From: Azospirillaceae bacterium
Lineage (GTDB): Bacteria; Pseudomonadota; Alphaproteobacteria; Azospirillales; Azospirillaceae
NCBI GenBank assembly: GCA_031291675.1
Contig: JARLIO010000034.1
Span: 124,001-188,000 of the forward strand
Direction: 5' to 3'
DNA length: 64,000 bases
Positions 2,956 through 8,136 of this stretch are shown here, one piece after another (the stretch's first letter is position 1; the number at the start of each line of letters is the position of its first letter). Below the pieces are notes generated by a model that searched no databases, was not told the origin of the DNA, and saw only the letters and a program-made list of their open reading frames with translations. A program made the translations under genes and the position numbers.

Positions 2956-3707
2956 ATTGATCCTTGTGAGAGAAACCGTGTTGTTGCACCGCATGATAAA
3001 AGCTCGGAGAGGCCCGGTTACAAGAGTGGCTTCAGCGGAGAAAGCCCCGGTCGGACGAAATGTGGTAATACCGCAACATGGTATTCGGCGAGCCCGCGCA
3101 CGACCCGACGCCGTGGCATATCCCGCCGCAAAACGACCGCGGGGCGCCTCCAAAACACCTGCGGCTTCCGTCACAGCCGCGATTATTGTGATGTTTTTCA
3201 ACATGTTATGAAAAAACACGCCGGGCGCGCCACGCGCGTGTCGACGGCCTTGACGCGGGCATCGGGATGGGCTCCCGCAACGGCAAATGCCCCGATCATG
3301 ACCTTACCTCAGTAATATTCATGCGCATTTCGCCCGATTTTTGTGACAGTCTTGACGTCACACGAACCCTCGACCAGACGTCATGGCTGATCTACCCGGA
3401 TGCGATGGCACCGGCGCCTTGAAGCGCGGGTGGCGACAACGGGGCGATCGGGGTACCGGGATCAACCACGCCGCCGGCCGAAGATCCCCCTTCACGATCG
3501 CCGGGGGGTGTGTTAGCCCCTATCGCGTCGCGGGAACCGCCCGATCGACGATCCTTGGCGCGACCGCAACGCAGCGCCCGGGACCCGACGTCCGGGGGGA
3601 TCGGAAACGGGTAGACCGGGGCGAAAAACGGGGACAGGAAATCGGTCACCGACCGGGAATGCCATCCGTATTGGCCCGGCGTTCGTCCGGCAACAGGGGC
3701 GCCATTG
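2956..3707. other. Long intergenic region upstream of panB
   Basis: About 750 bp with no convincing gene on either strand; the open frames here lack ribosome-binding sites and family resemblance. A TTGACG motif at about 3351 could be part of a promoter towards panB but its -10 is poor. No RNA gene was recognised. Confidence 0.35.
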
Positions 3708-4580
3708 ATGAGCACGACAACCACGGGCAAGCGAATCACGGTTCCGGATCTGATCGCCCGCAAGGCGGCAACACCGATCACCGCCCTCACCGCCTACAGC
3801 GCGCCGATGGCGCGCCGGCTTGATCCGTACGTCGATGTGCTTCTGGTCGGCGACAGCGTCGGCATGGTGCTTTACGGCTTTGACAGCACCCTGCCGGTGA
3901 CGCTGGAGATGATGATCGCCCATGGTGCCGCCGTCGTCCGCGGCGCCACACGGGCCTGTGTCGTCGTCGACCTGCCGTTCGGCAGCTACCAGGCCTCCCC
4001 CCCGGTCGCCTTTGCCAACGCCGCCCGGGTCATGGCCGAAACCGGCTGTGCCGCGGTCAAGCTGGAAGGCGGCGCCGCGATGGCCGAGACGATCCGCTTC
4101 CTGACCGACCGCGGCATCCCGGTCATGGGCCATGTCGGCCTGACCCCCCAGGCGGTCAATGTTCTGGGCGGCTATCGCGCGCGGGGGCGCGATGAGGCGG
4201 AAAGCGCCCGGATCACCGCGGATGCCAAGGCTGTCGCCCAGGCGGGCGCCTTTACCGTGGTGCTGGAAGGCGTGATCGAGTCCCTGGCCCGCGACATCAC
4301 CGCCGCCCTGGTGATCCCGACGATCGGAATCGGCGCCTCCCCGGCCTGTGACGGCCAGATCCTGGTCAGCGACGACCTGCTGGGCCTGTTCGGCACCTTT
4401 ACTCCCCGTTTCGTCAAACGCTATGCCGAGCTGGGCCCGATGATCGAAGCCGCGGCCCGGGCTTTTGCCGCCGACGTTCAGGCCCGCCGCTTCCCCGGCC
4501 CCGAGCATTGCGTCTCGACGGCCATCGCCCCGGCCACGCCCGCGCCACCGACACCGGAACAAGGGATTTCCACCCCATGA
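3708..4580 (+). CDS. panB: 3-methyl-2-oxobutanoate hydroxymethyltransferase
   Basis: Catalyses the first committed step of pantothenate (vitamin B5) synthesis, transferring a hydroxymethyl group from methylene-THF to 2-oxoisovalerate. About 290 residues form a TIM barrel with family motifs [12 protein letters not shown] near residue 22, [12 protein letters not shown] near 45, AVKLEGG near 115, MGHVGLTPQ near 137 and [14 protein letters not shown] near 206. Start ATG 3708 has AGGGG nine bases upstream; an in-frame TTG directly before it is less likely. The stop overlaps the panC start (ATGA), so the two are cotranslated. Fragments of this gene recur at 7687-7830. Confidence 0.97.
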
Positions 4581-5437
4581 CCACACAAACCAAGGGTATC
4601 GCCGTTGTCCGGACCATCACGGACCTCCGCGCCACCGTCGCGACATGGCGTGCCGCCGGCCACCGCATCGCCCTGGTTCCCACGATGGGCGCCCTCCATG
4701 ATGGCCATCTCGGCCTGGTGCGCGCCTCGTTCGAGCACTGCGATCGCACCGTCGTCTCCCTGTTCGTCAATCCAACGCAGTTCGGTCCGACCGAGGATCT
4801 GTCGATCTACCCCCGCGCCGAAGCCGAGGACATCGCCAAGCTCGACGCCATCGGCACCCCGCTGCTTTATGCGCCGTCGGCCGATATCATGTATCCGCCG
4901 GGCTTCATCACCAGCGTCACGGTCGGCAAATTGACCGAACGGCTGTGCGGCCTGACGCGGCCGGGCCATTTTTCCGGCGTCGCCACCGTCGTCACCAAGC
5001 TGCTGATGCAGGTGCAGCCCGACGAGGCCCTGTTCGGCGAAAAGGACTATCAGCAGCTGCAGATCATCCGCCGCCTGGTTGCCGATCTCGACATTCCGGT
5101 GCGGATCCGCAGCGTTGCCACGGTTCGCGACGAATTCGGCCTGGCCCTGTCATCGCGCAACAAGCTCTTGAAACCCGATCAACTGGCCGTGGCACAGCAG
5201 CTCAACCGCGTCCTGACGGAGATTGCGGCGGCGATCCGTGCCCAGCCCGATCAGGTGCGCAAACCGGTTCTCGACGGGCTGACCCGGTTGCAATCCCTCG
5301 GCTTCGCGCCCATCGACTATCTCGTGCTGGTCGACGATGAGACACTGGAGCAGCTTGACCATTTCGACCGGCCGGCCCGCTTGATGGTCGCCGGCTATCT
5401 GGGTCCAACCCGCCTGATCGACAACCTGTCCCTCTGA
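4577..5437 (+). CDS. panC: Pantothenate synthetase (pantoate-beta-alanine ligase)
   Basis: Joins pantoate and beta-alanine with ATP to form pantothenate. The 286-residue protein has the nucleotidyl-transfer HIGH-type motif in [11 protein letters not shown] (residues 35-45), [10 protein letters not shown], the pantoate-binding [17 protein letters not shown] and the ATP-binding FGEKDYQQL and ALSSRN segments. It overlaps panB by four bases. Its last 155 bases and the following intergenic palindrome are repeated at 7827-8136 with 97-98 percent identity. Confidence 0.97.
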
Positions 5438-5592
5438 ACCGCCGGCGGCCCCGTTGAGGCGGCGGCCCGCGGTTGTCGCGCCAGGAACTCACGGGGACCG
5501 GCATGCCGGTCCCCGTGAGCGGTGACAGAGACTACTGATAGAAGTTATAGCCGGCAAACAGCAGGCTGTCGGCTTCCTGGGTCAACAGATCC
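5283..5592. repeat. Left copy of 310-bp direct repeat (panC 3' end + terminator + phosphatase 3' tip)
   Basis: Matches 7827-8136 base for base at a constant offset of 2544, with seven mismatches that I counted. It comprises the end of panC, the intergenic palindrome, and a relic (5532-5592) of the last 19 codons plus stop of the phosphatase-like gene whose intact copy is at 8076-10166. Homology stops abruptly at 5592/5593, where the foreign segment begins. Confidence 0.93.
5488..5519. terminator. Palindromic bidirectional terminator candidate after panC
   Basis: A perfect 32-bp palindrome (arms CTCACGGGGACCGG, centre CATG) just after panC. Originally it lay between convergent genes. It has no T-run, so its strength as an intrinsic terminator is uncertain. 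Confidence 0.6.
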
Positions 5593-5616
5593 CATCATAT
5601 TCAAGGACGCGAGCCA

Positions 5617-6120
5617 CTAGTTTGAAAGAGCAATCCCGCGCATTGTCGCTTCAGTCGACCCACCATTCTTGCTCTCGTGATCGATCCATTGCCTGATCCA
5701 GGCGACGTGCTCGGCTTCCTCGGCCGCGAACTCCGCGGCCAGCCTGCGGATCTCCGGATCATCGGTGGTGTCGTGCACGGATTTGTAGAAGTCGTAGCCC
5801 GCGGTCTCGCTTGCGAGCGCGATCTCGAGCGCCTCGTTCTTGGCCAGAAACGGATCGGCGGCCCAGATCGCCGCCGCTTCCGGGCTTTCCACGTCGGGCC
5901 ACTGATAGGCGCCGGGGTCCATCACCGGGATGTCGCGGAAGCCGCTTCGCGCGCGCGCGTCGGCCAGATGCCGCCGGGAGTACTCCGACAGCCGCCGGAA
6001 CAGGGAGCCGACATCCTTGTTGCCATAGCCCTGCATGGCGTCGGCGAGCTGGTCGAAGCGCAGCGTCGCCTCCTCCTCGAGCTTGGTCGCGTAAGCGAGA
6101 AATTCCTCCACCGATTTCAT
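5617..6120 (-). CDS. Ferritin-like (rubrerythrin-type) domain protein
   Basis: A 167-residue protein made almost only of a ferritin-like four-helix fold. Likely metal ligands include the glutamates of LEEEATLRF (near residue 15), an EIALASETAGYDFY helix (near 105) and AEEAEHVAWI (ExxH, near 137). It is a clear paralogue of the C-terminal half of the next gene upstream (shared pattern Y-WP-D-E-PE---W---DP and DPEIR). The role may be iron or peroxide handling; this is inference. Start ATG 6120 has GAAGGA about nine bases upstream. It lies 145 bp downstream of the ferredoxin fusion, probably in the same transcript, inside the foreign segment. Confidence 0.8.
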   Translation of the reverse strand: MKSVEEFLAYATKLEEEATLRFDQLADAMQGYGNKDVGSLFRRLSEYSRRHLADARARSGFRDIPVMDPGAYQWPDVESPEAAAIWAADPFLAKNEALEIALASETAGYDFYKSVHDTTDDPEIRRLAAEFAAEEAEHVAWIRQWIDHESKNGGSTEATMRGIALSN

Positions 6121-6265
6121 CGGGCTGTGTCCTTCGTGCTGGCAAACTGGCGCTCACGCGTCGTCCGGCGAAGCGGGTCGCGGACGACGGGCGGGCCACT
6201 CGCGGGGTGAGTTATCTTCGAATCGTCATCCCGCTCTATTGCTTCGAACTTTTCCGGATCACGTT

Positions 6266-7174
6266 CTAGGCGAGTGGCATCGGATTTTTCTGCAGCCATT
6301 CCTCGCGGGTGATCCAGGCCTCGAGCACCTGCACGTGCTCGGCCTCTTCCATATAGAATTCCTTGGCCGCCTCTCGAATCTCCGGATCTTTGGATGTGCC
6401 GGCGATGGAGTAGTAAAATTCGTAGCCGCGCCGCTCGCCGACCAGCGCCGCTCGCAGCGCGTCGAGCCGCGACATCAGCGGATCGCCGGCCCACAGCGCG
6501 GTACGCTCCGGCGTTTCATGATCGGGCCAGGCATAGTCGGGCGGAAGCAGCTTGTCGGTATCGGTTCCGGCCGCCCGCCTCTGCGCTTCGGCCAAATGCA
6601 GCCTCGAGAAGCCCGCGAGTTGCGCGAACAGTTTCGCCACCTCGTGATTGCCGCAGGCCTGCATCGCCGCCGCCAGCTTGTCGAAATGCAGCGCGGCGTC
6701 CTGTTCGACCTTGACGGCGAAACCGTGAAACTCCGCAAGCGAGCCGATTTCTACGCCGCCCTTGTAGACTTTGGCGGCCGGCGTCAGATACGGCGCCTGC
6801 GCCGGCAGCGTCTTGTCGCCCTCGAAGGCGACGACGATGTCCTCGTTGCGGATGAAGCACTGGCAAGCCAGCCGATAGTGCGGCGGCATGTCGTTGACCT
6901 CGGCCTCGTAGATCTCCTCCTTGGAGATTTTACCGAGCTGGCGCAGCAGCTCCTTTTCCTTCTCGGTCAGTGCGATCGCGTACTTGCGATGCTTTTCCCT
7001 CGCAAGGTGCTTGACCTCGACCAGGCAGGAGCCGCAATCGCCGTCCTGGCAATCGAATGGGATCGGGATCTTGTGGGCCTTGGCGACGGCGAGAATGGTG
7101 CCGCGATCACCGGCGACGGCATAAACGGTGATGTCCCGCGCCATCACAGGCGACGAGAATGTAACGTTGCTCAT
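6266..7174 (-). CDS. 2Fe-2S ferredoxin fused to ferritin-like domain
   Basis: Residues 1-120 form a plant/Shethna-type [2Fe-2S] ferredoxin with C42-x4-C47-x2-C50 and a fourth cysteine at C104 (or C106) in RLACQC. Residues 148-295 form a ferritin-like domain with the helix motif YMEEAEHVQVL. The fusion suggests direct electron transfer between a 2Fe-2S cluster and a di-iron site. Start ATG 7174 has AGGAG six bases upstream, better than ATG 7195. A good sigma-54 -24/-12 element lies about 120 bp upstream (7292-7307), so I infer nitrogen- or NifA-linked expression, perhaps oxygen protection or iron supply for nitrogenase. No nif gene is in the window to confirm this. Confidence 0.82.
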   Translation of the reverse strand: MSNVTFSSPVMARDITVYAVAGDRGTILAVAKAHKIPIPFDCQDGDCGSCLVEVKHLAREKHRKYAIALTEKEKELLRQLGKISKEEIYEAEVNDMPPHYRLACQCFIRNEDIVVAFEGDKTLPAQAPYLTPAAKVYKGGVEIGSLAEFHGFAVKVEQDAALHFDKLAAAMQACGNHEVAKLFAQLAGFSRLHLAEAQRRAAGTDTDKLLPPDYAWPDHETPERTALWAGDPLMSRLDALRAALVGERRGYEFYYSIAGTSKDPEIREAAKEFYMEEAEHVQVLEAWITREEWLQKNPMPLA

Positions 7175-7291
7175 AGCATACTCCTGTGATGACACGGTTC
7201 AAATGCCGTCGTCAATGCTCGTCAAGTGTCGGACTGGAGTGCCGCTCGTGAGCGCCGATCAGAACACCAGCCCCGCGTCCAGACACCACCG

Positions 7292-7307
7292 AGCAAGAAG
7301 CGCGCCA
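7292..7307 (-). promoter_or_regulatory. Sigma-54 (RpoN) -24/-12 promoter
   Basis: On the minus strand the sequence TGGCGCGCTTCTTGCT fits the consensus TGGCACG-N4-TTGCW with one mismatch, and the GG and GC doublets are exactly 10 bases apart. It would start transcription near 7281, about 107 bases before the ferredoxin-ferritin gene. I found no TGT-N10-ACA NifA site upstream, so the activator is unknown. Confidence 0.65.
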
Positions 7308-7686
7308 ACGCTACTTCATGCGTCGTTATAGATAGTTAGCTGATCGGCATGCCTCGTTCGAGACGTCGGCCCGCGTGCTTTCGTCGGGTTTGCGACCGCT
7401 TTGGCGGCCACCGGTGTTTGGATTTGTGCGCTCCAGCCTTTCAGCTGCGCCTCTCGCGCGCTTTCATCATTTTACGTTTCGACGCATTGGCTTTGATCTT
7501 CGCACGCCACGGCCACACGTGGCCTTTGGCACAACTTCCCAGCCGATGCGCTTCCCTAAGGTATTGGCATCGCTCTTGCTGTTCATCCCCACGCTAAACC
7601 GGGACACGCTCCTGCACATCATCGTGTCGGAATGCCTTCACGGTTTGCGTCAAAGCCGACAGGCAAGTCGAAAAGCGGAGCAAGTC
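7308..7686. other. Upstream part of the foreign segment, no gene assigned
   Basis: About 380 bp between the sigma-54 promoter and the panB relic. It is less GC-rich than the host genes. An open frame runs from 7375 into the relic, but it is a chance fusion. No transposase, integrase or terminal inverted repeat was recognised. Confidence 0.4.
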
Positions 7687-7981
7687 ATGGCCGAGACAAT
7701 CCGCGTCCTGACCGACCGCGGCATCCCGGTCATGGGCCATGTCGGCCTGACCCCCCGGGCGGTCAATGTTCTGGGCGGCTATCGCGCGCTTACTCCCCGT
7801 TTCGTCAAACGCTATGCCGAGCTGGGCCCGGTTGCAATCCCTGGGCTTCGCGCCCATCGACGATCTCGTGCTGGTCGACGATGAGACGCTGGAGCAGCTT
7901 GACCATTTCGACCGGCCGGCCCGCTTGATGGTCGCCGGCTATTTGGGTCCAACCCGCCTGATCGACAACCTGTCCCTCTGA
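7687..7981 (+). pseudogene. Eroded panB-panC relic
   Basis: A mosaic of three collinear pieces of the pan locus: 7687-7789 matches panB 4080-4182 (three mismatches seen), 7790-7830 matches panB 4399-4439, and 7827-7981 matches the panC 3' end including its stop. The internal deletions are about 216 bp and about 843 bp; the second joins panB to panC at a shared CCCG. Reading frames are not preserved across the second joint, so no functional enzyme is made. Confidence 0.92.
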
Positions 7982-8136
7982 ACCGCCGGCGGCCCCGTCG
8001 AGGCGGAGGCCCGCGGTTGTCGCGCCAGGAACTCACGGGGACCGGCATGCCGGTCCCCGTGAGCGGTGACAGAGACTACTGATAGAAGTTATAGCCGGCG
8101 AACAGCAGGCTGTCGGCTTCCTGGGTCAACAGATCC
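7827..8136. repeat. Right copy of 310-bp direct repeat
   Basis: Partner of 5283-5592. This copy continues without break into the intact phosphatase-like gene, so it holds the ancestral right-hand junction, while the left copy holds the intact panC. Confidence 0.93.
8032..8063. terminator. Second copy of the palindromic terminator
   Basis: Identical 32-bp palindrome to 5488-5519, here 12 bases past the stop codon of the minus-strand phosphatase-like gene. Confidence 0.6.

Follow-up and report, generated by a model that had tools for sequence, protein, structure and literature searches.

How did a two-gene operon of apparently foreign ancestry come to lie between panC and its convergent neighbour, with scraps of panB and panC on its far side? 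The question is raised by a locus of an Azospirillaceae bacterium (assembly GCA_031291675.1), which was analysed within a window of 64,000 nucleotides (contig JARLIO010000034.1, positions 124,001 to 188,000). The window lies within the contig designated here C88 (655,335 bases) of a draft genome of 5.87 Mb in 99 contigs, and positions given without a contig refer to the window. The locus consists of panB and panC, a segment of 2.1 kb with a ferredoxin-rubrerythrin fusion gene and a rubrerythrin gene, and a gene designated phosphatase-like. We lean slightly towards reading it as the fossil of a tandem duplication around a resident operon that was followed by complementary gene loss, as in the tandem duplication-random loss (TDRL) and SNAP models.

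Duplicated pan-phosphatase sequence

The left flank of the 2.1-kb segment was compared with its right flank by local alignment. Three pieces of sequence were present in both flanks in collinear order (Table 1), and the alignment as well as a search for repeats across the entire window demonstrated that the duplication is direct, in tandem orientation. The right copy lacks 216 bp between the two panB pieces, an in-frame deletion with no microhomology at its junction, and 847 bp between the second panB piece and the panC piece, with a 4-bp microhomology (CCCG) at the junction. The repeat search (exact seed of 14, length of 60 or more) revealed only three families of direct repeats of at least 60 bp in the window, every one of them part of the pan duplication. 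The flanking repeats are not due to chance. A first-pass annotation, made from the letters of the sequence alone, had described 310-bp direct repeats with seven mismatches, two collinear panB pieces with two deletions in the right flank, and the tip of the phosphatase-like gene on the left with the intact gene on the right. The alignment reproduced the repeats exact to the base and the panB pieces at the same coordinates, and the gene was found as 19 codons plus stop on the left and as 696 open codons on the right. The repeat identity, which the annotation had proposed to compute, amounts to 10 differences in 454 bases over the three pieces.

The intactness of the genes is complementary. panB and panC are whole on the left and the phosphatase-like gene is whole on the right, and each gene has a single intact copy. 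Of the ten differences, seven fall into pan-coding sequence, four of them synonymous and three non-synonymous. The latter replace Phe132 by Val and Gln149 by Arg in the right copy of PanB, and Tyr271 by Asp in that of PanC. Gln149 is invariant in 19 of 19 related loci and Phe132 is Phe in 18 of the 19; Tyr271 of PanC is invariant in all eight panC sequences that aligned. The right pan copy has changed at invariant residues and therefore appears free of selection. Moreover, both copies carry the same panC-phosphatase intergenic junction, including a 32-bp palindrome. Since this junction is common to both, the earlier proposal that panB, panC and the phosphatase-like gene were contiguous before the event, in this order, is supported for the predicted ancestral arrangement. 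The accompanying proposal of an extra pan copy that then decayed holds for the right panBC, which was lost; the left copy, however, lost the phosphatase-like gene, so that the loss was reciprocal.

Joining of the pan loci of two strains in one contig, by an assembly error or by strain mixing, could be considered for a draft assembly of 99 contigs. We regard such an artefact as very improbable: within the right copy there are deletions as well as replacements of invariant residues, the left junction of the segment shows a typical microhomology, and the locus is far from either end of a contig of 655 kb, in a genome with a stated contamination of 1.1%.

Table 1. Features of the pan locus, with positions in the window
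Feature	Position	Strand	Basis or remark
panB, intact, ketopantoate hydroxymethyltransferase	3705..4580	+	PF02548, E 1.3e-105; TIGR00222 over cut-off
panC, intact, pantoate-beta-alanine ligase	4508..5437	+	PF02569; TIGR00018 over cut-off
Perfect palindrome of 32 bp between convergent panC and phosphatase tail	5488..5519		identical to 8032-8063
Phosphatase-like gene relic, last 19 codons plus stop, left copy	5532..5592	-	alignment
AGATCC, 6-bp microhomology at left junction	5587..5592		common to phosphatase tail and repeat element
Truncated right end of MITE-like dispersed repeat of ~155 bp, ending CCACTAG	5587..5620		32 bases matched, 5587-5618
Rubrerythrin/ferritin-like gene, 167 aa	5617..6120	-	PF02915, 50.5 bits
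[2Fe-2S] ferredoxin-rubrerythrin fusion gene, 309 aa	6266..7195	-	PF00111 and PF02915 above gathering scores; relatives; tree
Sigma-54 (-24/-12) promoter motif, TGGCGCG-N4-TTGCT	7292..7307	-	96 bases before fusion ORF start
Right part of segment, apparently non-coding	7308..7686		no relative found
panB relic piece 1	7687..7789	+	= 4080-4182; local alignment, 103 bp, 3 mismatches
panB relic piece 2	7790..7830	+	= 4399-4439; local alignment, 41 bp, 0 mismatches
panC 3' relic, intergenic palindrome and phosphatase 3' end	7827..8136	+	= 5283-5592; local alignment, 310 bp, 7 mismatches
Phosphatase-like gene, intact, 696 aa	8076..10166	-	open over 696 codons; no Pfam, NCBIfam or PDB match
MITE, miniature inverted-repeat transposable element; ORF, open reading frame.

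The operon and its left junction

The fusion gene and the rubrerythrin gene, both on the minus strand, are predicted to form a two-gene operon. Among 68 related loci for which sufficient downstream sequence was present, 34, mostly from Hyphomicrobiales, likewise have a rubrerythrin gene 3' of the fusion gene and in the same orientation; eight loci that matched only the ferredoxin part (L131-L138) were excluded from this count, from the count of looser promoter motifs given below and from the tree. The maximum-likelihood tree of the fusion protein contained 72 rows, and five loci with a stop codon within the alignment were dropped. The fusion protein grouped with a Bradyrhizobium metagenome-assembled genome (MAG) and a Hyphomicrobiales MAG from a bog (100/99), next with Acetobacteraceae (98/96), and fell outside the clade of the host family (Skermanella, Azospirillum; 100/99). 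Because the tree places the protein away from the clade of the host family, the operon appears to have been acquired horizontally at some point, and the segment, termed foreign in the first-pass annotation, would be so by ancestry. The name of the donor is unsure because the two nearest rows of the tree are MAG contigs.

At its left edge the segment begins with the end of a MITE-like repeat, which shares AGATCC with the tail of the phosphatase-like gene. A pattern of the repeat end, in which the three positions that differ in the window are left unspecified, occurs at 16 places in this genome within three mismatches, the place in the window included, versus none for the reversed control pattern. 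The window agrees with the two nearest copies at 29 of 32 bases. Other copies of the repeat measure about 90-160 bp (a full form of ~155 bp and a short form of ~90 bp) and have different flanks; they include C88:101095-101264, L004, L005 and L140-L152. The ends of the element read as related inverted repeats, as judged by eye from the sequences. MITEs and dispersed palindromic repeats occur in proteobacteria. The element resembles them in its length of ~155 bp, its many copies and its ends, which read as related inverted repeats, whereas no more than its last 32 bp remain at the pan locus. The first-pass annotation had seen no terminal repeats, a statement that does not hold for this junction.

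A full-length copy was searched for in 81 family genomes. In this genome the best 10 of 108 candidates were scored and all of them matched at 94-100% over at least 150 bases. Among the best 10 or fewer candidates scored per genome, eleven other family genomes had partial matches to the middle of the repeat only, and the full-length repeat was not found in any of the other 80. Since the left edge is a truncated repeat that was found full-length in this genome only within the family, the operon was probably resident in the lineage before the left junction formed. The earlier proposal that the segment entered together with an extra pan copy is not obviously borne out. In the simplest order of events, the operon would first have been acquired, the repeat would then have inserted at the operon's 3' end within this lineage, and the junction with the phosphatase tail would have formed last.

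A repeat end exactly at the left edge is also what might be seen after transposition or movement of a composite element in which the MITE-like repeat forms one end. However, nothing at 7686 matches the repeat, so that a repeat end is present on the left only, and none of the ORFs between the repeats was recognised as a transposase. When the two genes and ten further ORFs were compared with Pfam, no mobile-element protein was found between the repeats; two ORFs were ferritin-like, one was a panB relic and nine had no match. Target-site duplications usually measure 2-14 bp. The direct repeat of 310 bp is far longer than that and carries gene pieces with deletions. Movement of this kind is thus improbable, and a simple insertion sequence (IS) was rejected as a candidate for lack of a recognised transposase and of a second repeat end and because of the length of the flanking repeats. 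On both points, the missing transposase and the exclusion of an ordinary IS insertion, the first-pass annotation was borne out.

The main rival is the insertion of imported DNA by a transformation-type recombination, either homology-facilitated illegitimate recombination (HFIR) or the formation of merodiploids. In this case, a donor fragment with the operon and a piece of the pan region would have joined through homology at its right end and through the 6-bp microhomology at its left end; by linking sister chromatids it would have duplicated the pan region. The microhomology in HFIR usually measures about 3-8 bp. The foreign ancestry of the operon in the tree, the pan homology on its right side and AGATCC on its left side are consistent with such an import. 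The mechanism has been described for Streptococcus pneumoniae, including a duplication of 3,276 bp without flanking repeats, in the part of PMC3784515 that was available, and HFIR is reported from several species in excerpts of PMC3240628 and PMC5361080. As in the merodiploids and HFIR products described in the excerpts of PMC3784515 and PMC5361080, homology is found on one side and an illegitimate join on the other, and host sequence is duplicated; unlike those, the cargo edge bears a repeat of the host lineage. Because of this lineage-specific repeat, a distant donor is unlikely for the last step, whereas a close strain is possible. The fragment would need to come from a near relative in which the operon already lay beside panB, unless the repeat came later. 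Import in this form, including the bridging of sister chromatids, is rather unlikely in our judgement.

A possible history of duplication and reciprocal loss

In the duplication-loss history that we slightly favour, the ferredoxin-rubrerythrin operon would have been acquired horizontally, and a MITE-like element would have inserted at the 3' end of the operon within this lineage. Through the duplication, the operon would then have ended up between two copies of the pan-phosphatase region, in one of two ways. Either the operon was originally located left of panB and the AGATCC join is the breakpoint of the duplication, or it was originally located right of the phosphatase-like gene and the join results from a later deletion between the AGATCC of a phosphatase copy and that of the repeat. 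Purifying selection would have retained one working copy of each gene, while deletions at short homologies and point mutations erased the rest. As net outcome, the operon would have come to lie between panC and the phosphatase-like gene without any recognised transposase, and both genes would each have retained a copy of the presumed bidirectional terminator. The relics of the lost copies sit exactly where a tandem duplication predicts them, and a duplication with the operon between the copies, together with the loss of redundant copies, explains every piece of the locus.

Several observations weigh against this history. A duplication that included the operon predicts a second operon copy at first, yet no relic of one was found in 84 kb around the locus (C88:104001-188000), and no second DNA copy was found in a search of the genome in which the best 40 of 185 candidates were scored; at the protein level, the matches were distant ones only. 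Complete loss of such a relic is possible; its absence nevertheless lowers the duplication-loss claim. The repeat could also have been inserted after the operon had reached the locus, with a deletion following. No other genome of the genus was among those that the searches returned, and the ancestral order is an inferred one. Direct repeats flanking a cargo also occur in a family relative (one comparable pair in 400 kb, and none in 400 kb of another). Finally, duplication within the cell and recombination with DNA of a close strain are indistinguishable on this evidence. We suggest only tentatively that the locus is a natural intermediate of bacterial gene-order change by duplication and reciprocal loss, with its relics still readable.

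TDRL is known from mitochondrial genomes, where genes are lost reciprocally and remnants stay between the genes. The pan locus has the reciprocal loss of duplicated genes in common with it; it differs in that it lies in a bacterial chromosome and that the moved unit is a putatively horizontally acquired operon. In the SNAP model, as set out in the part of PMC7055797 available and treated also in an excerpt of PMC8046335, a segmental duplication followed by asymmetric loss gives rise to a new gene order. According to the same part of PMC7055797, direct evidence was lacking in 2020, and the trace proposed by its authors was pseudogenes with matching active copies. Measured against these excerpts, the pan locus agrees with the model in several features: a region is duplicated, each gene has one active copy, the pseudogene relics have active partners, and a new order results without inversion or IS. 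It differs in the small size of the region, with about 1.5 kb of identifiable duplicate, and the selection for gene dosage in a new niche belongs to the SNAP model.

Gene-order change in bacteria can usually be read from its end state only. At the pan locus, relics and active genes are arranged as a history of duplication and loss predicts, and the junctions are legible base by base. If this history is true, the locus would supply the kind of evidence that the SNAP authors, in the part of PMC7055797 cited above, called missing in 2020. Collinear gene scraps and complementary intact copies around a moved operon can be used as a search pattern in any genome collection.

Further features and similar loci

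The family match of panC starts at residue 32-33 of the listed ORF and the true start is therefore probably near 4600. The 32-bp palindrome is probably a bidirectional terminator of the convergent genes; the terminator scan did not list it. The term phosphatase-like is only a name given in the first-pass annotation to a gene without a recognised family in Pfam, NCBIfam or PDB, and its protein had no match in 81 other family genomes searched. The rubrerythrin gene has its stop codon within CTAG at the end of the repeat, and the last ~20 residues of the protein are unaligned with its homologues.

The strict sigma-54 motif upstream of the fusion gene is the sole match in the 64-kb window, and 5 of 100 shuffles contained at least one. 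A looser pattern was detected up to 500 bases upstream in 16 of 72 related loci, and none of 362 control stretches taken from these loci contained it. An exact NifA-type site (TGT-N10-ACA) was not found within 500 bases upstream in the window, where three sites with one mismatch occur. Two matches to nifH over the family cut-off are present in the genome, and no nif genes were found among 10 ORFs around two relatives (L068, L060). The motif suggests a role of the operon in nitrogen fixation or at low oxygen; only the motif and nifH elsewhere in the genome point to the link with nitrogen fixation. For the right part of the segment, 7196-7686 had no match beyond chance elsewhere in this genome (35 of 35 candidates scored), 7190-7690 had none at E 0.001 when 384 further genomes of the class were searched with up to two candidates scored in each, and no plasmid record or Rfam family was matched. 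In 80 related loci no match extends past base 7221.

Self-comparison of C88 revealed a second locus (G000:C88:374754-380849, L217) with like anatomy. An intact methyltransferase gene (C88:374754-375596) is followed by 4.2 kb with HlyD-type and MFS-type genes and one ORF without Pfam match, then by an internal methyltransferase fragment of 446 bp (94.4%, 25 differences, 12 of them non-synonymous) and a TetR gene. This locus is independent of the pan locus on the same contig and has the same anatomy.

Direct pairs of at least 100 bp and at least 85% identity with a gap of 0.5-15 kb were counted, with the pan pieces counted once. The rule excludes two tandem pairs of 1,494 bp and 138 bp in this genome whose copies are less than 100 bases apart, a pair of the family relative G031 (1,207 bp, 99.5%, 15.7-kb gap), close tandem pairs of the relative G006, and pairs below 100 bp. 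The 1.03 Mb read of this genome contained four pairs, and stretches of 400 kb from G031 and G006 contained one and none, respectively; such fossils may recur, and the pair counts amount to no demonstrated enrichment. Two shorter pairs were noted at G000:C88:527634-529049 (187 bp, 89%, ~1.0 kb between) and at G000:C23:105707-111522 (101 bp, 88%, ~5.6 kb), the latter adjoining a truncated copy of the MITE-like repeat. In G031, a direct repeat of 269 bp (94.8%) lies around 0.8 kb (G031:C1:109286-110617) and is possibly a fossil of the same kind.

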